This document shows, piece by piece, positions 5,152 through 30,060 of a stretch of DNA of 64,000 nt. Within the stretch, counting starts at the first letter, position 1. Each line of letters opens with the position of its first letter. Origin of the DNA: Halorussus aquaticus (GTDB lineage: Archaea > Halobacteriota > Halobacteria > Halobacteriales > Haladaptataceae). The stretch covers positions 2,852,001 through 2,916,000 of the forward strand of contig NZ_CP100400.1 of the NCBI RefSeq assembly GCF_024218795.1, written 5' to 3'. The notes below the pieces were generated by a model, which ran no database searches, was not told where the DNA came from, and was given only the letters and a program-made list of their open reading frames with translations. Made by a program: the position numbers and the translations under genes.

Positions 5152-5781
5152 ATGTCCAACAGACGCCGACAGGCCGACGACTTCGAGATAACTGCCGACC
5201 TCCCGGACAGTCCGATGCACACCACCGGAACCGACCACATCACGCTCATCGGGAGCAACACCGAGGACACCGTCGAGTTCTACCGCGACATCCTCGGGAT
5301 GCCGCTCGTCCTCCGGCAACCGAACCTCGACGACCCCTCCCAGACCCACCTCTTCTTCGACACGGGCGACGGTCGCATCGTCACGTTCTTCGTGAACGAG
5401 GACCGCGACTCGGACCCGCGGCCCCAGCGCACCGGCGTGGGCGCTGTCCACCACCTCTCGTTCAGCATCGACCCCGAGGAGTTCGTGGAGATTCGCGAGA
5501 CGCTCAACGAGGAGTGGCGCGGGTGCAACGAGTTCGACCGCGGCATCTTCCACTCGCTGTACACGCAGGACCACAACGGACTGGTCATCGAACTCTCGAC
5601 CGACAAGTGGGCGATTCCGGATGACCGACGGGGAGAGGTACTGGCGACCGCCCAGCGCATCCGCGAGGAGGACGGCGCGGACTTCGCCGAGGAACGCCAC
5701 ATCGAACAGGCGCTCGACGAACTCGGCATGGACGTCGAGAAGTACGACCTGCCGGACGCCGACACCGGGTCGGGCGTCTGA
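5152..5781 (+). CDS. VOC-family (glyoxalase/dioxygenase-fold) protein
   Basis: This 209-residue protein has a vicinal-oxygen-chelate module opening with TDHITLIGSN and continuing through the paired beta-alpha-beta units, with HHLSF and the metal-site-like GLVIELSTD segment near residue 147. The spacing of the two His residues (TDH, then HHLSF) and the final Glu fits a metal site. Ring-cleavage dioxygenases, glyoxalase I and fosfomycin-type enzymes all share this fold, so the reaction is unassigned. The C-terminal 60 residues are helical and charged. The ATG lies about 40 bases after a run of pyrimidine- and GC-rich sequence; no unusual feature was seen. Confidence 0.78.
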   Translation: MSNRRRQADDFEITADLPDSPMHTTGTDHITLIGSNTEDTVEFYRDILGMPLVLRQPNLDDPSQTHLFFDTGDGRIVTFFVNEDRDSDPRPQRTGVGAVHHLSFSIDPEEFVEIRETLNEEWRGCNEFDRGIFHSLYTQDHNGLVIELSTDKWAIPDDRRGEVLATAQRIREEDGADFAEERHIEQALDELGMDVEKYDLPDADTGSGV

Positions 5782-6574: not shown

Positions 6575-6593
6575 TTTTTAGGCCAGCCTAAAA
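6575..6593. promoter_or_regulatory. Iron box 1 (DtxR/IdeR/Idr-like palindrome)
   Basis: The core TTAGGCCAGCCTAA at 6578-6591 is flanked by T and A runs. It overlaps the likely TATA region of the glutamine-synthetase-like gene, whose ATG follows at 6618. The same 14-base pattern recurs five more times, four of them at the siderophore promoters. Occupancy here would block promoter binding, so iron-replete repression is the expected effect (inference from DtxR-family iron repressors). Confidence 0.75.
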
Positions 6594-6617: not shown

Positions 6618-7955
6618 ATGACGGAGAACCAGTCGATTGCCGAACGATGTCGGGACGCGAACTGCGACCTCGTGCGGTTGCTGTTCGTGACCCAGAGCGG
6701 GGCGATACGCGCCCACGCGGTGGACGCCTCGAAGGTCGAAACCGCCGTCGAGGACGGCGTGACGCTCTCCCAACTGGTGCAGACGTACAACGCGCTCGGC
6801 GTCCGAGACAAGGACGGACGGTTCGACGCCGCCGGAGAGGTCCGACTCTGCCCCGACTCAGAGACGTTCCGGGCGCTCCCCTACGCCGAACGCACGGGGG
6901 CGATGCTCTGCGACGTCGAAACGCTCGACGGCGACCCGTGGACCGTGGACCCGCGCTCGTCGCTCCGGGCGTTCGTCGAGCGACTGCGGGCCGACGGACT
7001 CGCGCCCGAAGTCGCGTTCGAGAGCGAGTTTCACCTGTTCGAGACCGACGACGACGGCACCGTCCGCAACGTGGACGAACGCGGAGCGTACCTGACCAAG
7101 AGTACGCGCGAGACTCACGAGACCGTCTTGGCGACGATAGACGCGCTGAAGGCACAGGACGTCGCCGTGGAGAAGTATTACCCCGAGTACGCGGCCGGGA
7201 AACACGAAATCGTCACGGGCCACGCGCCGGGCGTCCGGGCGGCGGACGAACACGTCCTCCTGCGCGAGACGGTCGATAGCGTCGCGCGCGACCACGGCTA
7301 CCGCGCCACGTTCCTCCCGAAACCGTTCGACCACGCGACGAACGGCTGTCACGTCCACCTGTCGCTGTGGGACGAGACCAACCGCTTCCACGACGAGGAC
7401 GAGGGGCTGAGTCGGACGGCCAGACAGTTCGTCGCGGGCGTCCTCGACCACGCGCCCGGTCTCGTCGCGCTGACGGCCCCGACCGTCAACTCCTACGCCC
7501 GCTTGCGGCCCCAACTCGGCGCGACGGCGTTCGTCTGCTGGGGACGGGGGAACCGCGAGGCCCTCGTCCGCGTGCCCGCGACGGGCCAGTCCGACGACCC
7601 CGAGGCGACGCGGGTGGAGTTCCGCGCGGCCGACAACACCGCGAACCCGTACCTCGCCCTGCTGGGATTGCTCGCGGCCGGGTACGACGGAATCGAACGC
7701 GAACTCGCGCCTCCGGAGTCGGTCTCCATCGACCCCGGCACCCTCTCGGCGGCGGCGCGCCGAGAGCGGGACATCGACCGACTCCCGCGGACGCTCGGCG
7801 CGGCGCTCGACGCGCTCGAAGGCGACGAGGTGCTGCGCGACGCGCTCGGCGCGGACCTCTTCGAGACGTACCTCGGCGTCAAGCGGAGTCATTGGAAGGC
7901 GTTCACGGACAGTGCGGTCTCTTGGGAGCGCGAGCGACTCCGAGACGTGTACTGA
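6618..7955 (+). CDS. Glutamine-synthetase-family ligase in the iron regulon
   Basis: This 445-residue protein of the glutamine synthetase fold (amide-bond ligases using ATP, glutamate and an amine) has an N-terminal beta-grasp half with [15 protein letters not shown]. The C-terminal catalytic domain shows [19 protein letters not shown] (about residues 194-205), NGCHVHLS (about 241-248) and the terminal [19 protein letters not shown] block. It resembles the GlnA-like/PuuA/FluG branch rather than the main nitrogen-assimilation GlnA. It may glutamylate an amine other than ammonia. An iron-box palindrome covers its promoter and it converges on the siderophore-uptake operon, which suggests a role in siderophore biosynthesis, modification or polyamine/diaminopropane handling. 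That role is inference; the fold is clear. A housekeeping GlnA cannot be ruled out without a phylogeny. Confidence 0.82.
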
Positions 7956-8976: not shown

Positions 8977-10152
8977 TCAAATCGCTCCGCTCCGGATGTC
9001 GGCGACGCGCTGACGGTCGTAGAGTCGCTCGTCCTCGCCGAACTCGTCGGGGAACAGTTGCTTGGCGGTCCGCTCGGTCTTCGAGAGGTTCGTAATCGGT
9101 CCCTGATACATGCTGCCCGCGGGGTAGACGTCCCCGTTCTGGACCGCGGTCAGGGTGCTCGCGGTGTCGTGCCCGCGGAGGAATTCGAGGTACGTCGAGC
9201 GGAACTGCTCGGCGGTCCGGTGCTGGTCGGTGTAGAACATCAGCACCTCCGGGTCTATCTCCAGCAGCGGTTCGTAGTCTATCGTCCCCCGGTCGGAGGT
9301 GAACGTCGATATGTCCGACCCCGCCAGCGCGTCGCCGATGCCGAGGTCGTTCCAGTGTTTGTACGCCGTCCGGTCGCCGAGTCGGTACGGGTAGTATTTT
9401 TCGGGTTCGGTAGACGCCGGGGAGAGTAGCGCGACGGAGGGTCGCTCGTCCGGCAGTCGGTCCGTGATTCCGCCGATGACTTCGTCGTGATACTGCGAGA
9501 AGGCCTCGTATCGGTCGGTCCGCTGGAACACCTGCGCGACCTTCTCGAACGCCTCGTAGAGGTCGTAGTAGGGGTAGTCCTCGTGCCACGAGTAGGTCGA
9601 GAAACTCGTGTTCCCGCAGAGCGGACCCACGTTCGTAGCTATCTCCTCGACGTCGGCCTGCTTCCAGTTCGGGATGAGGTTCGTCATGTAGTTCGGGTCG
9701 ATGAAGTGGACGTCGGCGTCGAGGTCGTAGAACAACTCCTTCGAGATGCCGTCCTGCCAGAGCGAGGTCATCTCGTCGGTATCGACCGAAAGCTGCGGAA
9801 CGTCGTCGTAGTGGTGAGTGCGGTACTCGCCCGTGAGAACGACGGCGAGCGGCGGTTCCAACCCGAGCGCGATGCCCATGTCCGCCCAACTCGCGTTCTC
9901 CGCGACCCACGCTTCCGGGACCTGCTCGAACGACACGTCGCCGACCGGCGGCAGTGTGACCGAGTACGAGGCGTCCTGCGTCGTCTCTTCGGTCGTTTCG
10001 GTCGTCGTAGTGTCGGTCGTGGTCGTCGCGTGGGTCGTCGTCGAGTCGCCACCGGACCCGCCGGTACAGCCCGCGAGCGCCGCGCTACCGACTGCTACGC
10101 TACCTTTGAGGAACCGTCGCCGCGTCGAGTCACCGTCTGAGCTATCGACCAT
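8977..10152 (-). CDS. Tat-exported lipoprotein, ferric-siderophore ABC-type binding protein
   Basis: This 391-residue solute-binding protein has a twin-arginine signal TRRRFLKG (residues about 10-17), then a lipobox ending ALAGC (about residue 29), and a Thr/Glu-rich linker of about 30 residues that tethers it to the membrane. The body is FecB/FhuD-like, with a long central helix region and a C-terminal NGDVYPAGSMYQGP segment resembling the end of periplasmic iron-siderophore binders. It should capture a ferric siderophore outside the cell and pass it to an ABC permease, but no permease or ATPase gene is adjacent. The start ATG lies three bases from an iron-box palindrome, with a TATA-like ATTAATTG about 25 bases upstream, so the transcript is probably leaderless. 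Confidence 0.86.
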   Translation of the reverse strand: MVDSSDGDSTRRRFLKGSVAVGSAALAGCTGGSGGDSTTTHATTTTDTTTTETTEETTQDASYSVTLPPVGDVSFEQVPEAWVAENASWADMGIALGLEPPLAVVLTGEYRTHHYDDVPQLSVDTDEMTSLWQDGISKELFYDLDADVHFIDPNYMTNLIPNWKQADVEEIATNVGPLCGNTSFSTYSWHEDYPYYDLYEAFEKVAQVFQRTDRYEAFSQYHDEVIGGITDRLPDERPSVALLSPASTEPEKYYPYRLGDRTAYKHWNDLGIGDALAGSDISTFTSDRGTIDYEPLLEIDPEVLMFYTDQHRTAEQFRSTYLEFLRGHDTASTLTAVQNGDVYPAGSMYQGPITNLSKTERTAKQLFPDEFGEDERLYDRQRVADIRSGAI

Positions 10153-10154
10153 AG

Positions 10155-10174
10155 TTTTTAGGCCGACCTAAAAA
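10155..10174. promoter_or_regulatory. Iron box 2, proximal site of the binding-protein promoter
   Basis: The core TTAGGCCGACCTAA at 10158-10171 is extended by T and A runs into a 20-base near-palindrome. It lies between the TATA-like element (10175-10182, read on the minus strand) and the ATG at 10152, where a bound repressor would block transcription initiation. Confidence 0.8.
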
Positions 10175-10190
10175 CAATTAATCGCTTCGA

Positions 10191-10208
10191 TTTAGGTCGG
10201 CCTAAAAT
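10191..10208. promoter_or_regulatory. Iron box 3, distal site of the binding-protein promoter
   Basis: The core TTAGGTCGGCCTAA is at 10192-10205. Its centre is 34 bases from that of box 2, with the TATA-like sequence in between. Paired sites of this kind suggest cooperative or double-dimer repressor binding around the promoter. Confidence 0.78.
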
Positions 10209-10293
10209 ACGTTACATCCTACTTTCCAGAACGGACTGATAAGTCTCCCGGAACCGTTCGCCGCGTTCGGTGATGCTCGACCGTGAGGGCTCG

Positions 10294-12216
10294 TTAGTGG
10301 CCTCCACGGTCGCCGAACTCGGACAGCGGATTCGAGACGGTGCCGTGGCCTCGCACCTTCGGCCGGGTGCTGAAGTCCTGATAGCCGTAGTCCACGATTC
10401 TGTTCCGGTTGAGACAGTGCTTGGTGAACCGGGGTCGAAACAGGTCGAACGTCTCGAACCGGTCGGCGAGACCGGGGAACTCGGCCTGATAGCGCTCGAT
10501 GGCCGACCGGACCTGCCGCCAGAATCGTTCTTCGGCGTAGTCTTCCCGGCGGGCCAGCAGGTCGGCGACGTACCGGAAGACGCCGACGAACAGCGTCCCG
10601 AAGACGTGCTGGCAGAGCGGTTCGGGCGGGAGGCGGTGGAGGATGTGGTGCTTGTACCGCTCGTCGTCGCGCAGGTCGTCCGCGAGTACCTCGTCCAGTT
10701 CCGGCAGGTCGCGGTCGGTGATGGCGACCTCGTCCACGAAGTCCTTGACCGCGATGCGGGTCGGCACGCCGCCCTCGTGGACGAGGACGACGTTCGTCCC
10801 GTGGGGCATGAACACCGTGCCGTACTTGTAGAGGTAGTGGACCAGCGGGTGGAGCAGCACGTCGAATAGCCGGTCGAGCCACTCGCTCAGTCCCAGTCCG
10901 GAGCGCTCGACCAGTTTCGAGACCAGCGGCGTCCCGTCGAAGTCCTCGTGGATGAGCGCCGCGAGCGTCAGGGGGCGTTCGCCGTCCTCGACCATCGAGA
11001 CGACGCTCTCGCGCCAGACGCACCCGAGGAGTTCGTGAAACTGGTACGGTGCGTCGTCGAACGCCGAGAAGTACGGGTGTTCGTAGTTCACGCTGGCGAC
11101 TTCGCCCGGCAGGAGCAGGTCGCAGTCGTCTCGGAGGAAGGCGTCGCCGTCGCGCACCCCCTTCACGAACTCGGTCACGCGCGGGGCGGCCTCGGCCTGC
11201 TCGCCCAGAATCCCGCGGTAGACGTTGGTGTTCAGCACCCGAATCGGGAGTTTGACGTGGCGCTTCGTCGGGTCCGAGACGTTCGAGAACGTCCGAATCG
11301 ACTGCTGTGGGAGGTACTCGTCCGGGGCCTCGCCGAGCGGAACGATGGCGTCGTCGGCGATGTCGCCCGCGAACAACTGGACCACGCTGTCGTTCCACTG
11401 CCAGTCGTGGACCGGCAGGAAGTGGTAGTTCGCCGGGTCGAGTCCCTCGTCGGCCAGCGTCGCCCGGAACGCGCCGACGGTGTCGCCCAACTCCGATTCG
11501 AGCAGGCCGTCGCGGTCCAGTCCCTCGACCGCGGAGAACGTCGCCCGGTCCCGCCGCGCGGCGACCCACGAGAGGCGCTGGCGTCGCTTGGACTCCGGGG
11601 CGTACCGCAGGTAGTCGTCGTAGCCGAACCCGACCCGGCCCTTGTTGTAGGTGAACCACGGGTGACCTTCCATCTCGCCCTCGACCGCTGCGTACGGGAG
11701 GTCGAGTATCGAGGCGTCGGCGGGCGCGTCTGCCTTCCGCGCCCGGATGTGGGCGTCCGCGACGAGCGTGTTGCGGTACTCGCGGACGAGGTGGGCCGCG
11801 GTCGTCGGGTCGATGCCGACGTACCCGCGGGCGTCCAGCAGGAACCGAAGCGGGTCGGTCGCCTCGGTCCACTCGTCGGCGTCCGCCGACTCGCCGTCAG
11901 GTCGTGTCGCGTCGGCCGAGTTGCCTGCCGTTTCACCGACGGTTCGGCGGAACACCGACCGGTCGCGAACCCGGTAACTGTCGAGGGGGCGAGACTGCGC
12001 GTCGAAGCGGTACTCGACGCCGTCGTCGAGTCGGAGGCGGTATCGCGTCCACGACTCGCCGGGGTCGGACTCGTCGGCCGGGACCGTCCCGGCGCGTGCG
12101 GGAGCGATCAGGTCCTCGTAGAGGAACTCCGCGAGGATTTTCCGGAGCAGGTCGCGTTCGACCGTCTCCCACGTCTCGGCGTTCAGCGCGGACCGGAGCG
12201 CGTCGAAGTCGTCCAT
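10294..12216 (-). CDS. IucC-type NIS siderophore synthetase (RhbF-like)
   Basis: This 640-residue member of the IucA/IucC family of NRPS-independent siderophore synthetases uses ATP to adenylate a citrate carboxylate and couples it to an N-hydroxylated, acylated diamine. Visible blocks are GHPWFTYNKGRVGFG (ATP-site region), LPVHDWQWND, SIRTFSNVSDPTKRHVKLP, and the C-terminal iron-transporter-like region HGTNVVLVH and KDFVDEVAITDRD. It is the sixth and last gene of the siderophore operon. I chose the ATG at 12214-12216, two bases after the upstream stop; a GTG two codons earlier would overlap that stop and is possible. In rhizobactin and aerobactin pathways this enzyme adds the second amine arm. 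Confidence 0.93.
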   Translation of the reverse strand: MDDFDALRSALNAETWETVERDLLRKILAEFLYEDLIAPARAGTVPADESDPGESWTRYRLRLDDGVEYRFDAQSRPLDSYRVRDRSVFRRTVGETAGNSADATRPDGESADADEWTEATDPLRFLLDARGYVGIDPTTAAHLVREYRNTLVADAHIRARKADAPADASILDLPYAAVEGEMEGHPWFTYNKGRVGFGYDDYLRYAPESKRRQRLSWVAARRDRATFSAVEGLDRDGLLESELGDTVGAFRATLADEGLDPANYHFLPVHDWQWNDSVVQLFAGDIADDAIVPLGEAPDEYLPQQSIRTFSNVSDPTKRHVKLPIRVLNTNVYRGILGEQAEAAPRVTEFVKGVRDGDAFLRDDCDLLLPGEVASVNYEHPYFSAFDDAPYQFHELLGCVWRESVVSMVEDGERPLTLAALIHEDFDGTPLVSKLVERSGLGLSEWLDRLFDVLLHPLVHYLYKYGTVFMPHGTNVVLVHEGGVPTRIAVKDFVDEVAITDRDLPELDEVLADDLRDDERYKHHILHRLPPEPLCQHVFGTLFVGVFRYVADLLARREDYAEERFWRQVRSAIERYQAEFPGLADRFETFDLFRPRFTKHCLNRNRIVDYGYQDFSTRPKVRGHGTVSNPLSEFGDRGGH

Positions 12217-12218
12217 CG

Positions 12219-13658
12219 TCACTCGCCCTCCGGGGCGGCGGACTCGGGGTGGCTCGCGTCCCCGCCTCCGCTCCCCGTGTCCGCGTCGCCCCGACCGCGG
12301 CCGCGCCGGTTCACGAACTCCTCGACCGCGAAGTCCTGATACACCGTGTCTGCGTCCTCGGGGTAGACCTCCCGGCCGACGAGTCGGTTCACGATGCGGG
12401 AGTTGCGGTAGCACCCCAGTCCGAGGTCGGGCGCGCCGACGCCGTGACTGTGGAGGTCGCCGTTCTGGACGAACACGTCGCCAGCCACGTCGTCGAGGAC
12501 GAGGCGGTGGTCCTCGGTGACTCGATACCGGCCCTTCTCGTCCCACGCGATTCGGTCCTCGATGGGGTCGAGGAACTCGGGGACCGGTCGGTGGTAGCCC
12601 GTCCCGAGAATCACCACGTCGCTCTCGTGGACGAACGACTCGTCGGTCTGCCACTGGCGGCAGTCGAGTCGGTAGTTCGCGCCCGTTTCGCTCGCCTCTC
12701 CCGCGTCGATGGCGTCGATGTCCTCGACCTCGGTCACGGCGAACAGTCCCACGTCAGGGTCCCGGTCGCCGACCGACCGCTCGTAGAGCAGGTCGTAGAC
12801 GGCGGCGCTGGTCTCGGGGTCGATTCCCTTGTAGAGCAGGTCTTGGTCCGCCCGAATCTCGTCTTTCCGGTCGTCGGGGAGGTCGTAGAAGTACTCGACG
12901 TACTCGGGCGTGAAGTGCTGTAGCCCGAGTTTCGAGTACTCCATCGAGAAGAACCCCTCCGAGCGCGTGAGCCAGTCGAGGCGGTATCCGGCGTCAGGTT
13001 GGCGGTCCAGCAGGTCGTGGAACACCTCGGCCGCGCTCTGGCCCGACCCGACCACCGTAATCGAGTCGGCGTCGAGACACCGGTCGCGTCGGAACCGGTA
13101 CTCGGCGGTGTGGAACACGTCCGCCTGTGGGTGACCACGCAGGGTCTCGGGGACGTAGGGCCGACTTCCGACGCCGAGCGCGAGGTTCCGGGCGCGGTAG
13201 GTCCGTTCCTGGCCCGTCTCGGGATTCCGGGCGGTCACGACGAAGTGGCCGTCCTCACTGGCGTCGTCCCTACTACCGTTCTGCCACGCCACGTCCTCGA
13301 CCCGGCGACCGAACCGGCAGGTCCCGAGGCGTTCGGCGACCCACCGGAGGTAGTCGTCGTACTCCCGGCGGGGAATCTGGAACGTCTCGTAGAAGTAGAA
13401 CTCGTAGAGGCGGTCGCGCTCCCGGAGGTAGTTGAGGTAGCTGTGGGGGTTGGTCGGGTCCGCCATCGTCACGAGGTCCGCGAGGAACGGGACTTCGAGC
13501 GTGGTCCCCGCTATCAGCATCCCCTCGTGCCACGCGAACTCGTCGTCCTGTTCGAGGAAGAGCGCGTCTACATCGGCCTCTGCGCCGTCGAGGAGCGCGG
13601 CGAGTCCGAGGTTGAACGGGCCGAGTCCGACGCCGACAACGTCTCGAATCCGGCTCAC
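12219..13658 (-). CDS. L-lysine/ornithine/diamine N-monooxygenase (IucD/RhbE-like)
   Basis: This 479-residue flavin- and NADPH-dependent N-hydroxylating monooxygenase introduces the N-hydroxy group of hydroxamate siderophores. It begins with the FAD motif GVGLGPFNLGLAAL, has the family block PFLADLVTMADPT (about residues 59-71), the NADPH motif VVGSGQSAAE, and the C-terminal ATGY-like ILGTGYHRP. By position it should hydroxylate the free amine of 1,3-diaminopropane or its acyl form. The GTG start at 13656-13658 forms a 4-base GTGA overlap with the acetyltransferase stop, which supports this start and translational coupling. The last 30 residues are Gly/Asp-rich and probably disordered. Confidence 0.93.
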   Translation of the reverse strand: MSRIRDVVGVGLGPFNLGLAALLDGAEADVDALFLEQDDEFAWHEGMLIAGTTLEVPFLADLVTMADPTNPHSYLNYLRERDRLYEFYFYETFQIPRREYDDYLRWVAERLGTCRFGRRVEDVAWQNGSRDDASEDGHFVVTARNPETGQERTYRARNLALGVGSRPYVPETLRGHPQADVFHTAEYRFRRDRCLDADSITVVGSGQSAAEVFHDLLDRQPDAGYRLDWLTRSEGFFSMEYSKLGLQHFTPEYVEYFYDLPDDRKDEIRADQDLLYKGIDPETSAAVYDLLYERSVGDRDPDVGLFAVTEVEDIDAIDAGEASETGANYRLDCRQWQTDESFVHESDVVILGTGYHRPVPEFLDPIEDRIAWDEKGRYRVTEDHRLVLDDVAGDVFVQNGDLHSHGVGAPDLGLGCYRNSRIVNRLVGREVYPEDADTVYQDFAVEEFVNRRGRGRGDADTGSGGGDASHPESAAPEGE

Positions 13659-14242
13659 GCCACCACCTCCCGCTCGAACCGGTCGCGCTCGCAGACCATC
13701 AGCAGCGCCGTCTTCTCGTCCATCTCGATTTCGCGCCGAGGTTCGAAGCCGCACTGCTCGAAGACGTGGTGGACGATTTCGTTTCGCACGTCGGGTTCGG
13801 CCACGACGCGTTCGGTCTCGCCGTGCCGGAACTGCATCTCGACGACCGCGCGGAGGAGGGGTTCGGCGTAGCCCTGTCCGAGATACTCGGGCGGCCCGAC
13901 GAGCAGGTGGACGCCTCGGTCGGCGGCGTCGGCGTCGTAGTGGTCCGCGACGGGGTCGTCCGCCGCCCAGTAGCACTCCCAGTAGCTCATCGGCACGTGG
14001 TCGAGGTGGCCGACGTAGGAGGTCAGGTGGTCGTCGGCCAACTTCTCGGCCAAGGCGTCGTGGAACTCGGGGAGCGGGTCGGCCAACTGCCAGTAGGGCA
14101 GTACGTGGTCCTCGTTGAGCCACGCGTGGAGCATCCCGAGGTCGGCCATCTCGGCCTGCCGGAACGAAATCGCCTTCTCGACTTTCCGGTCGTACGTCTG
14201 GAAGTCGTACGGCGCGGCGACGACGCCACCGGCCCCGGTCAT
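13655..14242 (-). CDS. GNAT acyltransferase for siderophore assembly (IucB/RhbD-like)
   Basis: This 195-residue GNAT-fold acyltransferase matches the siderophore acetyltransferase group: FRQAEMADLGMLHAWLNEDHV near the N-terminus, SYWECYWA in the middle, and the acyl-CoA-binding loop GPPEYLGQGYAEPLLRA (about residues 130-147). It should acetylate the N-hydroxylamine to form the hydroxamate. The ATG at 14240-14242 overlaps the upstream stop by four bases (ATGA), and its own stop overlaps the next start. Length agrees with about 195 residues for RhbD-like proteins. A longer upstream open frame lies inside the IucA-type gene and was rejected. Confidence 0.9.
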   Translation of the reverse strand: MTGAGGVVAAPYDFQTYDRKVEKAISFRQAEMADLGMLHAWLNEDHVLPYWQLADPLPEFHDALAEKLADDHLTSYVGHLDHVPMSYWECYWAADDPVADHYDADAADRGVHLLVGPPEYLGQGYAEPLLRAVVEMQFRHGETERVVAEPDVRNEIVHHVFEQCGFEPRREIEMDEKTALLMVCERDRFEREVVA

Positions 14243-16077
14243 CGCCGACTCACCTCCGACTCGGTCGCGGGGCCGCGCTCGGTCTCGGTCACGAGCGGGT
14301 TGGTCACGTCGGCGTACACCGACTGGTTCTCCAGCGACCCGACCAGTTCGTCCATGTCGTGGAACCGCGTGAGCAGGTTCGCCTTGCACGGCAGGGTCTC
14401 GTCTTCGAGCAGGCCGTTCAACAGCGACGACGACTCGCGGTCGAACGTCCGGCAGTATTCCAGTTCCTCGCGGAGAATCCCGAGCAGGTCGCGCTCGTCG
14501 GCCAGCCCCGCGGTCCCGAAGGCGTTGACGACGCCGAACAGGTTGTTCAGCACGACGTAGTACCGGATGCGCTCGTCGGCGACCGCGTCGGGACAGACGG
14601 TGTCGGCGCGCTCGCCCACGCCGGGGAGCAGGGCGTCCACGTCGTCGTACTGGGATTCCGGGAAGTAGTAGCCCTGATTGTCCCGGTAGTAGAACTCGGC
14701 CGGGTAGCCGTCCTCCAGCGCGAGGACGCTGTTCTGCTGGTGGGCCTCGACGCCGACCCCGCGTTCGAGGTAGAGCCACAGAATCGCCCGGAGCGAGCGT
14801 TCGAGATACCGACGGAACCAATCGCGACTGACCGCCTCCGTCGAGCGCCCCTCGCGCTCGGCGAGGGTCTCGATTATCTCGCCCAACCGCGACCCGTCGC
14901 CCGCGATGCGGTCCTGACAGAGCGCGACCACCGGACCCGCGTTCTCGGCGTCCGCGCCCCGGAAGGCGTTTTCGCGCAGGACGACCTCGAACCCAGACTC
15001 GGCGCCCTCGCCGACGGTCAGCGTGAGCGAGGCCGGGTCGCGCACGACGTGGAAGTCGGGGAAGCGCTCGCGGAGGTCGTCGCCGAGTTCGGTGTCCAGC
15101 AGTTCCGCGACGGCGACCCCGCGGTCGAGTTCCGGCCGCTTGTTGGTGCGCTCGGAGTTGGTAATCCGGACGTTGAGCGACCCCTTGACCATGAACGGGG
15201 CGTCCGGGGCGTAGAGCGTCCGGACCGAACTCGTCGGGTGGAATTCCCGGCCGACACGGCCCAGCGACTCCAGTCCGTCCCCCAGATGCGCCTGCACGTG
15301 GTCCTGTTCGAGCAGGTAGTCGGCCTGCCACGGGTGGACCGGAATCAGCACGTCGTCGCTCTCGACGTGGGCGGCGACGAACGACTCGGGCACCGCGGGG
15401 TCCTCCCGGAGCGCCGACTTCACCCACTCGCTCGCGGCGTCGGCGCTCCCGGCATCGACCTCGACGGTCGCGCCGAGCGCCGAGTCCTGCCAGACGAGGT
15501 CGGGGTCGGCCCGGAAGTAGTGGAGCGAGAACGACCCCTCCAGTTCGGGCGCGTAGGTCGGCGACTCGTGGGGCGGGATGCCCTGCCTGCTCTTCGGCGT
15601 CGGGTGGAGCAGGTGGCCGAACACCAGCGACTGCTCGGCCTCGCGGAACGTCGTGTCGAAGCCGTAGAGCTGTTCGGTGTCGTCCCTTCGAGCCTCCACG
15701 AACCGGGCGACGTTCTTGCAACTCCGGACGACCCGCAGAAGGAGTTCGTTGCGGTTCCCGGCGTCGTCGCGCGCCAGCGAGAGTTCCTCGGTCACGAGCG
15801 ACGCCAGCGTGACGTAGTCGAGTTCGAGCGTCTGGTCGCCCCGTCGGTAGTAACCCGGCAGGTCGAACAGGTGGCGGTCGGTCGGCGACCGATACCGTAG
15901 CGGGACGAACAGAGTGATTCCCTGTTCGGGCAGGGGCGCGCGGACGACGCGCTCGCGGCCGTGGGTCGGCGCGGGCGTGTCCGCGGCGTCCGCGACCTCG
16001 TAGTCGCCGGTCTCCCGGAGGTAGCAGTTGAGGAAGCTGTGCAACGTGGCGGACTCTGCGATTGCTGTCGGATTCAT
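14239..16077 (-). CDS. IucA-type NIS siderophore synthetase (RhbC-like)
   Basis: This 612-residue NRPS-independent siderophore synthetase of the IucA/IucC family condenses the first hydroxamate arm with citrate. Motifs include GHLLHPTPKSRQGI (the conserved GH..HP.PKSR block, about residues 174-187), IPVHPWQADYLLEQ, SSVRTLYAPDAPFMVKGSLNVRIT in pieces, and GVGVEAHQQNSVL followed by YYRDNQGYY near the C-terminus. It is clearly paralogous to the IucC-type gene downstream but distinct in sequence, as in other two-synthetase pathways. The ATG at 16075-16077 overlaps the decarboxylase stop (ATGA). Confidence 0.94.
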   Translation of the reverse strand: MNPTAIAESATLHSFLNCYLRETGDYEVADAADTPAPTHGRERVVRAPLPEQGITLFVPLRYRSPTDRHLFDLPGYYRRGDQTLELDYVTLASLVTEELSLARDDAGNRNELLLRVVRSCKNVARFVEARRDDTEQLYGFDTTFREAEQSLVFGHLLHPTPKSRQGIPPHESPTYAPELEGSFSLHYFRADPDLVWQDSALGATVEVDAGSADAASEWVKSALREDPAVPESFVAAHVESDDVLIPVHPWQADYLLEQDHVQAHLGDGLESLGRVGREFHPTSSVRTLYAPDAPFMVKGSLNVRITNSERTNKRPELDRGVAVAELLDTELGDDLRERFPDFHVVRDPASLTLTVGEGAESGFEVVLRENAFRGADAENAGPVVALCQDRIAGDGSRLGEIIETLAEREGRSTEAVSRDWFRRYLERSLRAILWLYLERGVGVEAHQQNSVLALEDGYPAEFYYRDNQGYYFPESQYDDVDALLPGVGERADTVCPDAVADERIRYYVVLNNLFGVVNAFGTAGLADERDLLGILREELEYCRTFDRESSSLLNGLLEDETLPCKANLLTRFHDMDELVGSLENQSVYADVTNPLVTETERGPATESEVSRR

Positions 16078-17564
16078 CGTCGGAGTTGTCTGTCTGCGAC
16101 CGCGATGGTTCGCGCGCGATTCCTGACGGCGTCGAGCACGTCGGCGACGCGTTCGACGGTCGTCTTCGGGTTCAGCAGGGTGAACTTCAGGGCGGTCGTC
16201 CCCCCGACCTCGGTGCGCCCGACCACGGCGTCGCCGTTCCGGAGCAGCGCCTCCCGGACCGCGGCGTTGAGTGGGCCGACCTCCTCGTCGCCGACGCTCT
16301 CGGGGCGATACCGGAAGACGACCGCGTTGAGCGTCGGGTCGTTGAGTACCTCGAAGTCGGACGCGTCGGCCAGCAGGGCCGCAACGTCGTCGGCGAGGGC
16401 GAGGGTGGACTCGACCAGTTCGGCGAGTCGCTCTCGGCCGAGCGTCCGGAACGTCACGTAGGGCTTGAGGGCGTCGAATCGCCGGGTGGTCTGGACCGAC
16501 TTCGAGACCAAGTTCGGCGCGGCGAGGTCGCCGTCCTCGGGGTTGAGGTACGCCGCCGACCGCTCGACGAGGTCGAAGCGGTCGCCGTCCCGGAGGAGGA
16601 GCGCCCCGCAACTGATGGGTTGGTAGAACAGTTTGTGGAAGTCCACCGCCAGCGAGTCAGCGCGCTCGATTCCGGCCAGTCTCTCGCGGTGGGTCTCCGA
16701 GAGCGCGAGCGCCCCGCCGTAGGCCGCGTCCACGTGGAACCAGAGGTCGTGCCGGTCGGCCCGGTCGGCGAGCGCGTCGAGCGGGTCGATGCTCCCGAAG
16801 TCGGTCGTGCCCGCGGTCCCGACGAGCGCGAACGGTTCGCGTTCGCGCTTGCGGAGGTCGGCGAGGGTCGCGTCGAGCGCCGCGGTGTCCATCCGGTGGT
16901 CGCCGTCGGTCTGGACGGTCACGACCGCGTTCTCGCCGAGACCGAGGTGGGCGGCGGCTTGCTTCGCGGTGAAGTGGGCCGCCTCCGAGCAGAGGATGCG
17001 CATCGCCTTGGCCTTGTGCGGTAGGCCCGTCTCCTCGACGCGGCGACCGAACCGCTCGCGGCCGAACCAGTTGCGGGCCAGCAGGAGGGCCTCGAAGTTC
17101 GACTGGGTGCCGCCGCTGGTGAACACGCCGTCGCCCTCGGGACCGTAGCCGAACAGGTCGCAGAGTCGGTCCACCATCCGACGTTCGACGTAGGTCGCAG
17201 CGGGACTCTGGTCCCACGAGTCGAGCGACTGGTTCGTGGCGGCGATAGCGGTCTCGGCCGCGAGCGCGGGCACCAGCGGCGGGCAGTGGAGGTGGGCGAC
17301 GCAACTCGGGTCCGAGACGCCGACCGAGTCCGACAGGATTCGGTCGCCGACCTCCTCGACGGTCTCGGCGAGGGGTTGGCCCTCGTCGGGCAGGCACTCG
17401 ACCCCACCGAACCGGTCGTCGAGGCGGTCGGGAGACGCCCCCGAGTAGGGCGTCGCGCTCTCGGAGACCGCTTCGACGACCGCCGCGCTGGCCCGCTCGA
17501 CGGCCTCTCGATAGGCGTCGTTCCCGGACTCGGTGCCGAGGAACAGGTCCTCGGCGTCCGTCAT
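16074..17564 (-). CDS. L-2,4-diaminobutyrate decarboxylase (RhbB-like)
   Basis: This 496-residue group II PLP-dependent decarboxylase has the PLP lysine in AVDFHKLFYQP (about residue 305), the substrate-side HLHCPPLVPALAAE block, and GVFTSGGTQSNFEALLLARN. Acting after the neighbouring aminotransferase it should convert L-2,4-diaminobutyrate to 1,3-diaminopropane, the amine arm of schizokinen and rhizobactin. Start (ATG 17562-17564) and stop both make 4-base ATGA overlaps with the flanking genes. Glutamate or tyrosine decarboxylase is possible from the fold alone, but the operon makes the diaminobutyrate role much more likely. Confidence 0.92.
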   Translation of the reverse strand: MTDAEDLFLGTESGNDAYREAVERASAAVVEAVSESATPYSGASPDRLDDRFGGVECLPDEGQPLAETVEEVGDRILSDSVGVSDPSCVAHLHCPPLVPALAAETAIAATNQSLDSWDQSPAATYVERRMVDRLCDLFGYGPEGDGVFTSGGTQSNFEALLLARNWFGRERFGRRVEETGLPHKAKAMRILCSEAAHFTAKQAAAHLGLGENAVVTVQTDGDHRMDTAALDATLADLRKREREPFALVGTAGTTDFGSIDPLDALADRADRHDLWFHVDAAYGGALALSETHRERLAGIERADSLAVDFHKLFYQPISCGALLLRDGDRFDLVERSAAYLNPEDGDLAAPNLVSKSVQTTRRFDALKPYVTFRTLGRERLAELVESTLALADDVAALLADASDFEVLNDPTLNAVVFRYRPESVGDEEVGPLNAAVREALLRNGDAVVGRTEVGGTTALKFTLLNPKTTVERVADVLDAVRNRARTIAVADRQLRR

Positions 17565-18922
17565 GGCGACCCGCCGGTGGCTTCGGAGACGGCGGCTTCG
17601 ACCGCCTCGCGGAAGATGCGGCCGATGTCCTCGACCTGCTCCTTCGAGACGATTAGCGGGGGTAAGAACCGGACGGTCGCGACCTCGCGGCCGCCGCGTT
17701 CGACGAGTAGCCCGCGCTCGAAACACGCCGACTGGACGGTCTCCGCGAGGTCGGGGGCGGGCGGACGCGCGCCGAGGGCGTCGGCGTCGGCCGATGCGTC
17801 CACCATCTCGGCTCCGAGCATCAGCCCCCGGCCCCGAACGTCGCCGACCGCGGCGAATCGGTCGGCCGCGGCGTCGAGGTGGTCGCGCAGGCGTGCGCCC
17901 ATCTGCTCGGCGTGACTCGGCAGGTCGTTGTCCACGATGTACTCGATGGTCGCCCTCCCGGCGGCCATCGCCAACTGGTTGCCCCTGAAGGTGCCGGTGT
18001 GGGCACCCGACTCCCACTCGTCCAACTCCTCGTCGTAGAGCGTCACCGCCAGCGGGAGACCGCCGCCGACCGCCTTCGAGAGCGTCACCACGTCGGGCGT
18101 GATGTCGGCGCGCTCGAAGTCGTAGAGTTCGCCGGTCCGGCCCAGCCCCGACTGGATTTCGTCCACGACGAGGGGCACGTCGTGTTCGCGCGTGATTCGG
18201 CGCATCTCCCGGAGCCACTCGGCGGGCGGGGCGACGGACCCGCCCTCTCCCTGCGTCGGTTCGAGGACCATCGCTGCGGGGTCGGTGAACCCGCGCTCCG
18301 GGTCTTCGAGCAGGCGCTCGACGTACTCGCTGGCGACCTCGTGGCCGTCCTCGCCGACGCCGAATGGACAGCGGTACGGGTAGGGGTACGGCAAGTGGTG
18401 GACGTTCCCCATCGTCCCGGGTATCGACTCCTTGGGATCCGTGTCACCCATCAGACCGAGCGACCCGTGGGTCATCCCGTGGTAGCCGCCGCGGAACGAG
18501 AGGACCGACCGGTTGCCGGTCGCGGTCTTGGTGAGTTTCAGGGCGGCCTCGACGGCGTCGGTGCCCGCGGGGCTACAGAACTGGATCTTGGCTGACTCGG
18601 CGAACTCGTCGGGGAGGCTGTCGAAGAGTGTGTCCACGAACGCCTCCTTGATCGGCGTCGTGATGTCGAGGGTGTGCATCGGCCGGTCGGCCGCCATCGC
18701 GTCTTCGATGGCCTCGACCACGACCGGATGGTTGTGACCGAGGTGGAGCGTGCCCGCTCCGGCGAGACAGTCATAGTAGGTGTTCCCGTCGGCGTCGGTG
18801 ACTTCGACGCCGCGCGCCTCTCGTATCGCCATCGGGAGGTATCGCGGGTAACTCCGCGCTCCCGACTCTCGCTCGGCCTGTCTGTCGAGCAGTCGGTCGT
18901 TCGACGCGTCGGAGTAGTCCAT
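17561..18922 (-). CDS. Diaminobutyrate-2-oxoglutarate aminotransferase (RhbA/Dat-like)
   Basis: This 453-residue class III PLP aminotransferase has the motifs FCSPAGTDAVEAALKLTK, FRGGYHGMTHG, VDEIQSGLGRTG and the PLP lysine in VTLSKAVGGGLPLAV (about residue 270). It transfers the amino group of glutamate to aspartate semialdehyde, giving L-2,4-diaminobutyrate for the decarboxylase downstream. It is the first gene of the operon. The ATG is at 18920-18922 with GGAG about 12 bases upstream, and two iron boxes lie 76-148 bases above it, so the mRNA probably has a leader of about 70 bases. Confidence 0.93.
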   Translation of the reverse strand: MDYSDASNDRLLDRQAERESGARSYPRYLPMAIREARGVEVTDADGNTYYDCLAGAGTLHLGHNHPVVVEAIEDAMAADRPMHTLDITTPIKEAFVDTLFDSLPDEFAESAKIQFCSPAGTDAVEAALKLTKTATGNRSVLSFRGGYHGMTHGSLGLMGDTDPKESIPGTMGNVHHLPYPYPYRCPFGVGEDGHEVASEYVERLLEDPERGFTDPAAMVLEPTQGEGGSVAPPAEWLREMRRITREHDVPLVVDEIQSGLGRTGELYDFERADITPDVVTLSKAVGGGLPLAVTLYDEELDEWESGAHTGTFRGNQLAMAAGRATIEYIVDNDLPSHAEQMGARLRDHLDAAADRFAAVGDVRGRGLMLGAEMVDASADADALGARPPAPDLAETVQSACFERGLLVERGGREVATVRFLPPLIVSKEQVEDIGRIFREAVEAAVSEATGGSP

Positions 18923-18997
18923 CTCAGACCAACTCCGTGTCGGTCGGTGGTCGGTGCGTCGTCCGTCCGTTTCGGAACGTGGTTCGTCGCGTCACAG

Positions 18998-19018
18998 ATT
19001 TTAGGCTGACCTAAAAAT
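18998..19018. promoter_or_regulatory. Iron box 4, siderophore operon promoter
   Basis: The core TTAGGCTGACCTAA at 19001-19014 lies within ATTTTAGG...CCTAAAAAT. It sits just downstream (minus-strand sense) of an AT-rich stretch at 19012-19031 that is the best TATA candidate for the dat-to-iucC operon, so it probably overlies the transcription start. Confidence 0.8.
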
Positions 19019-19050
19019 TGAAAAGTATTTCCCTCCGTTCGGGTATTTGT

Positions 19051-19070
19051 ATTTTAGGCCGCCCTAAAAT
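19051..19070. promoter_or_regulatory. Iron box 5, distal site
   Basis: ATTTTAGGCCGCCCTAAAAT is palindromic except for one base pair; the core is at 19054-19067. It lies 53 bases (about five helical turns) from box 4, upstream of the siderophore promoter. It also ends directly against an ATG on the plus strand at 19071, the same geometry as boxes 2 and 6. Confidence 0.8.
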
Positions 19071-27759: not shown

Positions 27760-28635
27760 GTGTCGAGTCGTCGCAACGTCCTCCGGCGCGGCGCGGGCCT
27801 GCTCGCGGTCGGAAGCGCCGCGGGCGTCGGTTCGCTCTCGGTCGGTTCTGACGACGGAGAGCGGAGCGCCGACTCCCGCACTGCGAACGCTCTCGTCGCG
27901 GGAAGCCTCCAGACCGTCGCTACCGGGGTCGGTGGCGCGACCGTCGAGGCACACGGCAGCGTCGCCTGCCGCCGACTCCTCGAAGACGGTCTGCGCGACC
28001 CGGACGCGGTGGCGCTGGCGGACCCGCGCCTGTTCGACGGTCTGGCCGAGCGCGCGACCGTCTTCGCCGCGAACGCGCTGGTCGTGGCGGTCAACCCCGA
28101 CTCTCCCGCGGCCGAGTACGCTGCGAGTGGCGGAGAGACGACCGACCGCGACGACTGGCGCGGCCTGCTCGCAGACCCGGCCCTCGCGCTGGGTCGGACC
28201 GACCCCGACCGGGACCCCCTCGGCTATCGGACGGTGATGGCGCTCGACCTCGCCGACGGAATCGACGCCGCGGCCGTGCGCGCACGGTCGCAGGTCTTCC
28301 CCGAGACCGGACTGCTCCGGACGCTCGAAGCGGGCGGACTCGACGCCGCCTTCGCCTACCGGAACATGGCGGTCGAACACGACCTCCCGTTCCTCGCGCT
28401 TCCCGACGGTATCGACTTCTCGAACCCCCGACTGGCCGACGAGTACGCCAGCGCGAGCGTGTCGCTCGACGACCGAACGGTCTCGGGGTCGCCGATTCGG
28501 TACGCCGCCCACGCCCGGACCGACCGCGGACGCCGGTGGGTTCGGACCCTCACCTCGGCGCGCGAGACCCTCCGAAACGCAGGGTTTGTCGTGCCGGACG
28601 GCTATCCGCGGACGCGAAAGATACGGGGACACTGA
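27760..28635 (+). CDS. WtpA/ModA-like tungstate/molybdate-type binding protein (orphan)
   Basis: This 291-residue extracellular solute-binding protein has a twin-arginine signal SSRRNVLRRG (residues 2-11) without a lipobox Cys. The mature part follows the WtpA pattern: NALVAGSLQTVA, EAHGSVACRRLL, DAVALADPRLFD, NALVVAVNPDSPAAEYA, GYRTVMALDLAD and GGLDAAFAYRNMAVEHDLPFL. The family binds oxyanions such as tungstate or molybdate for ABC uptake, but substrate specificity here is inferred and no permease is adjacent. The start is a GTG at 27760. It ends 25 bases before iron box 6. Confidence 0.8.
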   Translation: MSSRRNVLRRGAGLLAVGSAAGVGSLSVGSDDGERSADSRTANALVAGSLQTVATGVGGATVEAHGSVACRRLLEDGLRDPDAVALADPRLFDGLAERATVFAANALVVAVNPDSPAAEYAASGGETTDRDDWRGLLADPALALGRTDPDRDPLGYRTVMALDLADGIDAAAVRARSQVFPETGLLRTLEAGGLDAAFAYRNMAVEHDLPFLALPDGIDFSNPRLADEYASASVSLDDRTVSGSPIRYAAHARTDRGRRWVRTLTSARETLRNAGFVVPDGYPRTRKIRGH

Positions 28636-28660
28636 ACCGGAATTTACTTACGAACCGGAT

Positions 28661-28678
28661 TTTTAGGCTAGCCTAAAA
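28661..28678. promoter_or_regulatory. Iron box 6, perfect 18-base palindrome overlapping a start codon
   Basis: TTTTAGGCTAGCCTAAAA is an exact palindrome whose last A is the first base of the ATG at 28678. A TATA-like TTTACTTA lies at 28643-28650. This is the best copy of the TTAGG-N4-CCTAA motif in the window. Confidence 0.85.
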
Positions 28679-29562
28679 TGGTCGGCGCAACTCTGAGCGA
28701 CCTGCGAGAGCGCATCGCAGAACACCACGACGACGGCGGTCGGTACTACGTGAACTGCGCCCGGACGGGCGAACGGCCGGTGCCGGTCGCGGGCAAGCGA
28801 TTCCCCGACCGGGAGACCGCCGTCGCGGCCGCCGAACTCGCCGCCGAGTACCGCGCGGAACTCCGGCGGTACGACCCACGGCTACCCCACTACGACCTCG
28901 TGGTCTCGGAGGACCCCGGCGACCGCGACTCGGTGGACCCGGTCCCGTCGGCCGAGGATTCGTTGGACGCTGCGACCGCTTCGGACTTCTGTCACGACGT
29001 GGCCGCCGCGGTGTTCGAGGCGCTCTCGGAACTCGGCGAGAACAGCGTCGAGCGCGCCGTCTTGGAGGCGTATCTCCACTCGGCCGAGTCCGTGACCGAC
29101 CCCGACGAGTTGTGTCTGGTTCTGCTCTCGACCGCGGCGACCGAAATCGACGCCAGACTCGACCCCGGGCGACAGGCACGAGTCCTCCGAACCGCCGCGA
29201 ATCGACTCGGGACGCCGTCGCGGTTGGACGACCCGATGCGCGCGACGCTGGCACGTCTCGACGGTCTCTCGCTGGTCGGCGACTACGCGGTCGTCCCGAA
29301 CGGCGATACCGCCGCGGATTCCGATTCGGAGGGTGATACCGGGCGCTCGTGGAGAATTACGGTCGAGGAGTACGCCTTCGAAGCGTCCGAGGGTCGAGTT
29401 CCGACGCTCCCGTTCGCGGTCGAACTCTTCCGACACCTCCCGGCGGAGACGGTCGCGGTGGCGGACCTGCGGGCGATGACCGAGAGTCGGTGGGAGTGCG
29501 TCGTCTCGACCGACCCCGACCGCGCTCGGGCGGTCAGTCTCGCCGTCCCGGAGAACCGCTGA
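28678..29562 (+). CDS. Unknown haloarchaeal protein under iron-box control
   Basis: I do not recognise this 294-residue acidic, soluble protein. It has no signal peptide, membrane segment or cysteine cluster. The N-terminal 70 residues (LRERIAEHHDDGGRYYVNCA, then GKRFPDRETAVAAAELAAEYRAELRRYD in pieces) look like a small alpha/beta domain. The middle part (FCHDVAAAVFEALSELGENSVERAVLEAYL) is helical. The end, VPTLPFAVELFRHLP followed by WECVVSTDPDRARAV, is again alpha/beta. A perfect iron box covers the start codon, so it should be made only when iron is scarce. Roles in siderophore handling, iron release or sparing are all open. The ATG at 28678 is fixed by the leaderless promoter geometry. 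Confidence 0.75.
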   Translation: MVGATLSDLRERIAEHHDDGGRYYVNCARTGERPVPVAGKRFPDRETAVAAAELAAEYRAELRRYDPRLPHYDLVVSEDPGDRDSVDPVPSAEDSLDAATASDFCHDVAAAVFEALSELGENSVERAVLEAYLHSAESVTDPDELCLVLLSTAATEIDARLDPGRQARVLRTAANRLGTPSRLDDPMRATLARLDGLSLVGDYAVVPNGDTAADSDSEGDTGRSWRITVEEYAFEASEGRVPTLPFAVELFRHLPAETVAVADLRAMTESRWECVVSTDPDRARAVSLAVPENR

Positions 29563-29595: not shown

Positions 29596-30060
29596 TCACG
29601 TCTCGAAATCGGGGAGGTCCTCTGGTGCTTCGTAGTCGGCCTCCCAGTCGATGTAGTCGGACTCCAGCACGTCGCAGACGATTTGGCCGAGTTCGGTCAT
29701 CGCGGCGTTGATGCCCGAAACCGCGTTCCACGAGTCGAGGTCGGGGTGGTAGTCTCGCTCCTTCCAGTCCTCGGGGATGCCCGGCGCGTGGTAGCCGACC
29801 CTGTCGGCGAAGTCGTCCCAGAAGAAGTCGAACTCGCGGAACAGGCCGAGTTCCCGGGCGATTTCGAACTCCGACTCGTCGAGGTCGGTGTGTTCGGACC
29901 ACTCGCCGAACGCCTCGTCCCACGCGCCGTCCCGGAGGAACGCCTCCAGTTCTTCCCGACGGTAGTCGGTGTCGCCCTGTACCTCCACGTCGTCGTACTC
30001 CTGCATGTCGGTCCCTTCGGACAGTTCGGGCGGGTCCGGAACGGCAGCGTCGAGTCCCAT
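29596..30060 (-). CDS. Conserved-looking acidic hypothetical protein
   Basis: The 154-residue, strongly acidic protein is rich in Asp, Glu, Trp and Tyr (for example FREFDFFWDDFADRVGYHAPG) and has no membrane segment, signal or cysteine cluster. I do not recognise the family. Codon use and acidity fit a real haloarchaeal gene. It converges on the iron-box gene, ending 33 bases from it. The start ATG at 30058-30060 is preferred over an upstream extension that reads as non-acidic sequence. Confidence 0.65.
   Translation of the reverse strand: MGLDAAVPDPPELSEGTDMQEYDDVEVQGDTDYRREELEAFLRDGAWDEAFGEWSEHTDLDESEFEIARELGLFREFDFFWDDFADRVGYHAPGIPEDWKERDYHPDLDSWNAVSGINAAMTELGQIVCDVLESDYIDWEADYEAPEDLPDFET

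Follow-up and report, generated by a model that had tools for sequence, protein, structure and literature searches.

The gene of interest lies at positions 28678-29562 on the forward strand of the window—the whole 64,000-nucleotide stretch of the Halorussus aquaticus genome that was analyzed—and encodes a protein of 294 amino acids. In annotated records, this protein is named hypothetical or left unannotated, and the preliminary description had presented the gene as unrecognised. That label has to be dropped, since the product carries two Pfam families without an assigned function, both well above their cut-offs: DUF7552 (PF24422; residues 5-79, 28690-28914 on the forward strand; E-value 4.8e-33, 113.6 bits against a gathering cut-off of 27) and DUF7551 (PF24420; residues 102-285, 28981-29532 on the forward strand; E-value 2.6e-60, 204.1 bits against a cut-off of 52.6). 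The two matches rule out a gene devoid of any family. C27 (in DUF7552), H106, C146, E114 and Y132 show no variation across 53 full-length sequences, and 52 of these retain C105. The Pfam entries themselves give no function; what the present analysis adds is a recurrent link to an iron box. Neither Pfam nor NCBIfam returned a catalytic motif or an iron-protein family for the protein, the NCBIfam search yielded no name, and a 28-sequence profile found no relative in the PDB at E-values up to 1. A full-text literature search retrieved no paper on DUF7551, DUF7552 or DUF7260 (the family of a frequent neighbour), though the regulon tables of primary papers may list the gene; the portion of the main text of PMC11349517 covered here names neither DUF7551 nor DUF7552.

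As had been proposed, the product is soluble and acidic, with a pI of 4.54 and a maximum 19-residue hydropathy of 0.96. There is no membrane-like segment and, by inspection, no signal peptide, so the protein should be cytosolic. The gene stands alone, the downstream gene (29596-30060) being encoded on the opposite strand, and it is probably monocistronic. Upstream, a gene for a tungstate-type (WtpA-like) substrate-binding protein, whose score falls well short of the corresponding equivalog cut-off, runs from 27760 to 28635 on the forward strand and ends 42 bases before the ATG; no such gene occupies this position at the other Halorussus loci.

Directly upstream of the coding sequence lies a perfect 18-base palindrome, TTTTAGGCTAGCCTAAAA (28661-28678, without strand assignment), a DtxR-type iron box with a 14-bp core at 28663-28676. 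Because the ATG occupies 28678-28680, the final A of the palindrome doubles as the A of the start codon, exactly as first described. A TATA-like element, TTTACTTA, is found on the forward strand at 28643-28650 (-35 to -28 relative to the ATG), likewise at the suitable distance that had been claimed. The short spacing between this element and the ATG suggests that the mRNA is probably leaderless. The promoter architecture had also been equated with that of the siderophore-binding-protein gene of the window (8977-10152, reverse strand). This comparison holds for the presence of a TATA-like tract and of a box near the ATG, but not for the number of boxes: the latter gene has two, of which the closer one stops 5 bases short of its ATG, and the TATA-like tract sits between them, whereas the promoter studied here has only one, continuous with the start codon. 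With up to two mismatches, the core of the box occurs three times in the window versus 0.01 copies expected from shuffled sequences; the exact 14-mer is present once in the entire 4.74 Mb genome, and the pattern TTAGGN4CCTAA occurs 19 times genome-wide compared with three copies of a reversed control pattern. On these figures and its conservation in orthologs, a chance occurrence was rejected.

This conservation was assessed in 53 non-redundant loci, made up of the Halorussus set and roughly one locus for each genus, picked from DUF7551 hits by best domain score and blind to boxes. Loci L017 and L102, in which the gene had been missed by the gene caller, and L128 and L129, taken as duplicates of L013 and L015, were excluded before counting; single-domain DUF7552 loci (L132-L138) were counted separately. 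In 30 of the 53 loci, an exact TTAGGN4CCTAA is located no more than 300 bp upstream of the gene and, under a 175-bp operon rule, one lies upstream of the gene or of an operon mate in 49; the refuting outcome named at the outset, orthologs lacking the box, was thus not observed. Control genes from the same loci, each more than three positions removed from the gene, have a box in 19 of 366 cases, and each of four control palindromes scored 0/53. Among the four loci without an exact box under the operon rule, L083 and L101 have exact boxes next to another gene that lies farther upstream, across a wider gap; the boxes immediately upstream in L124 all carry one mismatch; and L108 has no box.

The contact between box and start codon, whose conservation had been proposed as a check, recurs as well: in 13 of the 53 loci, including all six from Halorussus, the core ends one base before the ATG, and positions -33 to -28 are A/T in 11-13 of these 13 promoters. 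Among the single-domain DUF7552 loci, four of seven (L132, L133, L136 and L138) have a box directly against the ATG. The contact is thus a feature of the gene family and not a quirk of one genome. The idea of an undescribed iron-stress component is supported, but the gene is not an isolated case, since a box at the ATG is seen in further DUF7552 genes too. In the six Halorussus upstream regions, mean pairwise identity is 0.94 in the box columns, 0.63 in the TATA stretch and 0.31-0.37 farther upstream, and no iron-uptake gene adjoins—ruling out a box that belongs to a neighbour. With the box columns conserved, the DNA upstream of them not, and no such gene alongside, the box would serve this gene itself.

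Boxes also occur in pairs. The 823 kb of sequence examined contains 102 exact boxes and no exact control palindrome, and out of 50 box pairs lying no more than 100 bp apart (allowing up to one mismatch), 29 are spaced at 36 bp and nine at 35 bp, with the TATA-like tract located between the two boxes. A shorter spacing was seen in L139, a second boxed locus of the window's genome, where DUF7552, DUF7260 and DUF7552 genes follow in series: at 10149-10182, two boxes at a DUF7552 gene are merely 20 bp apart versus the usual 35-36 bp. In L132 (6941-9044) and L136, a DtxR-family gene and one for a small protein come after a single-domain DUF7552 gene with tandem boxes, and in L132 a ferritin-like gene adjoins on the other strand.

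The box is of a recognizable type. DtxR proteins are described as acting by occluding RNA polymerase, and the consensus given in the portion of PMC7762939 covered here starts with TTAGGTTAGCCTAA; several orthologs carry this sequence, the first 14 bases of that consensus, as a core variant, and the core in the window differs from it by one base. A further list of known DtxR sites is included in PMC524172, which was likewise covered in part. The closest known system is the haloarchaeal DtxR-type iron regulon, comprising the Idr1/Idr2, SirR and TroR regulators and the 'ferR regulon signal' of Leyn and Rodionov (2015), as cited in section 3.3 of PMC11349517, from which this reference is taken. 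The same kind of box precedes siderophore-uptake genes in that regulon, and DtxR-family regulators are present in this genome, but the published motif may not be identical. In the window's genome, boxes are found before three Peripla_BP_2 proteins and a FecCD permease; the original reading of the palindrome as an iron box therefore stands, the pattern TTAGGN4CCTAA being conserved upstream of orthologs and also found before siderophore-uptake genes of the genome.

A similar association emerges from the gene neighbourhood, counted over six genes upstream and four downstream of the gene in the 53 loci, with families assigned through representatives. A siderophore-type binding protein (Peripla_BP_2) is encoded nearby in 21 loci, an FAD oxidoreductase in 17, an ABC ATPase in 15, a FecCD permease in nine, a HEAT-repeat protein in eight and a DtxR-family repressor, at position +1 or +2, in seven. 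A DUF7260 gene lies directly downstream on the same strand in 21 of 53, mostly overlapping or touching. At least one of binding protein, FecCD permease and DtxR repressor occurs in 27 loci, and none of the three in the other 26. On a plasmid of Halobellus limi, the row reads HEAT-repeat protein, FAD oxidoreductase, permease, ATPase, two binding proteins, FAD-binding protein, this gene and a hypothetical gene—apparently a complete uptake operon ending in this gene and the next. The N-terminal part of the neighbouring FAD oxidoreductase is thioredoxin-reductase-like, with a score far from its equivalog cut-off; the likeness to thioredoxin-reductase-like ferric-siderophore reductases such as IruO, as we take it, belongs to this neighbour and not to the protein studied here. 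Table 2 of PMC11218638 lists, for Haloferax mediterranei, repression of siderophore genes and, along with them, of an ABC ATPase, an iron ABC permease and an NAD(P)/FAD oxidoreductase.

On the strength of these sequence data, we consider it highly probable that the gene belongs to the haloarchaeal DtxR-type iron regulon. Because the same pairing of box and gene recurs in most of the related genomes examined, the 294-residue protein very probably takes part in the response to iron shortage. With ample iron, an iron-loaded dimer of a DtxR-family repressor would sit on the box and block transcription; since the box fills the gap between the TATA-like element and the start codon, a bound dimer would stand in the way of the transcription machinery. 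When iron becomes scarce, the repressor would leave the box and the protein would be made. The cytosolic DUF7552-DUF7551 protein could then act after import of the ferric siderophore, beside the FecCD/ABC importer and with the thioredoxin-reductase-like FAD oxidoreductase as a putative partner, where it might bind the imported iron or its carrier, hand it on or assist in its release; the invariant Cys and His residues are perhaps the means. With an importer and a reductase-like flavoprotein among its commonest partners, such a post-import role would be the most economical idea. A biochemical role is not established by proximity to siderophore genes, and a function of the soluble product in siderophore-iron assimilation is put forward as a tentative assignment, somewhat short of an even chance. 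Taken as a whole and weighted towards regulon membership, this explanation is, in our judgment, likely. The regulon case is built on the box, its geometry, its conservation in orthologs, the neighbourhood and the domains; from these, we infer repressor binding, an iron response, leaderless transcription and a biochemical role.

An importer-independent function deserves consideration on the basis of the same counts. The protein might be induced by iron shortage for another need, e.g., iron sparing, protection against oxidative or nitrosative stress, or metal trafficking outside siderophore uptake. The 26 loci without binding-protein, FecCD or DtxR clusters nearby would fit such a role, as would the DUF7552 locus L132, which combines a DtxR gene with a ferritin-like gene and one for a small protein; the loci that join the gene to uptake systems, however, favour uptake, and we regard the alternative as rather unlikely. 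Slightly less probable still, in our estimate, is that the protein serves as a regulator or sensor of the regulon itself, binding heme, NO, a siderophore or iron and adjusting the neighbouring DtxR-type repressor. The DtxR-family gene at +1 or +2 in seven of the 53 loci, the two of seven single-domain DUF7552 loci that precede a DtxR gene and the resemblance of DUF7551 models to a sensor-domain fold (H-NOX, MopR/PoxR/DmpR) all speak for this possibility, but a DtxR gene is absent from the neighbourhood in 46 of the 53 loci, genes for siderophore transport are found nearby more often, and the structural match, at Z below 8, is weak and without sequence support. Members of the DtxR family also sense manganese, and any of the five Fe_dep_repress (PF01325) matches above cut-off in the window's genome could be the binder, but a box that is accidental or meant for the regulator of another metal, leaving the gene without an iron role, is very improbable given its conservation at the same place across genera, its uniqueness in the genome and the occurrence of the same box before siderophore-uptake genes.

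Structural models were compared with known folds. A whole-protein model built from seven sequences had a mean pLDDT of 73.6, and at this level of model confidence the best Foldseek matches were H-NOX domains, with an E-value of 0.0097. When the DUF7551 domain was modeled separately, from the Halogeometricum limi ortholog, the pLDDT reached 90.9 and the pTM 0.87; Foldseek results were weaker in this case, with H-NOX at rank 7 (E-value 0.13). In structural alignments of the DUF7551 model, H-NOX domains and the β subunit of soluble guanylate cyclase lead and match end to end, with TRAPP subunits and the MopR/PoxR/DmpR sensors also among the matches, all at Z-scores of 6.7 or lower, i.e., below 8 and under the level called trustworthy. 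The alignment of model residues 2-172 with residues 1-185 of the guanylate cyclase β subunit, for instance, gave a Z-score of 6.7 and a root-mean-square deviation of 4.4 over 156 residues. The list of structural matches consists mostly of repeat entries for a few H-NOX proteins, so its length does not constitute independent support. A search of a viral structure library returned no match at E-values up to 0.001.

H-NOX, V4R and TRAPP families form one fold class, and the DUF7551 model shares with them a helical part followed by a mixed α/β half in the same order. The sequence comparisons, in contrast, were negative. Neither HNOB (PF07700) nor V4R (PF02830) appeared among Pfam matches at E-values up to 1, and hhalign gave a probability of 0.13 for DUF7551 against 15 haloarchaeal H-NOX sequences and of 0.10 against V4R, with a control value of 95.7 for H-NOX against V4R. 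Membership of DUF7551 in either family by sequence is ruled out by these Pfam and profile comparisons. The structure prediction and fold search called for at the outset thus yielded a weak, end-to-end likeness to H-NOX, V4R and TRAPP, but one that sequence does not support; a resemblance to this ligand-binding fold is plausible, though unproven. The helix that, going by the order of elements, would be expected to carry the proximal heme histidine contains no conserved histidine. By the same ordering, C105 and H106 would stand at the start of the first helix and C146 at that of the third, and the three residues may therefore share one end of the helical bundle. A more specific proposal can be framed around these features: DUF7551 could represent an unrecognised branch of the H-NOX/V4R/TRAPP fold without the usual heme histidine, in which C105, H106 and C146 would bind iron, a ferric siderophore or heme; DUF7551, DUF7552 and DUF7260 would together make up a haloarchaeal module for iron starvation, produced solely once the box at the start codon is free of the iron repressor. 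We offer this composite picture as speculative and, in its entirety, rather unlikely. A true HNOB (H-NOX) domain, identified by Pfam profile, is encoded elsewhere in the window's genome (L179; G000:C1:2031364-2031843).

The gene described here is a true and conserved iron-box gene, very probably a member of a known regulon type, and provides a testable hint at a ligand-binding fold. Little is known of how archaea use siderophore iron: names exist for importers and biosynthesis genes, but not for the steps that the ferric siderophore undergoes inside the cell. A family present in over half of the sampled haloarchaeal genomes, with its own iron box and often beside an importer, is a candidate for a step after import. 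If the fold resemblance were true, it would place an iron-regulated member within a fold known for heme/NO and phenol sensing. Within the class, DUF7551 was detected in 219 and DUF7552 in 257 of 391 genomes; in a phylum-wide set, DUF7552 was found in 11 of 120, all of them the window's own genome or members of the same order. DUF7551 is absent from three of nine genomes of the same genus, which argues that its function is dispensable. Haloferax volcanii produced matches in both the DUF7551 and the DUF7552 searches.

Other boxed genes came to light in the course of the analysis. The window segment at 8977-19067 contains the siderophore-type binding protein gene, with boxes at 10158 and 10192, and a minus-strand gene row extending to 18922, with boxes at 19001 and 19054, that resembles a siderophore biosynthesis cluster (of its genes, the aminotransferase alone was tested). 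In L153, a box at 5257-5270 lies 6 bp before a gene for a protein combining DUF5059 with a plastocyanin-like part, and DUF5059 may be a further uncharacterised member of the iron regulon. Finally, a glutamine-synthetase-family gene at 6618-7955 on the forward strand of the window is preceded by an iron box (6578-6591), 26 bp before its start. In Haloferax mediterranei, the genes for GlnA3 and GlnA2 flank an iron-transport binding protein by locus tag, and all three fall together in the tabulated portion of PMC11218638 (Tables 2 and 3); the gene of the window perhaps encodes an iron-regulated GlnA-like ligase.
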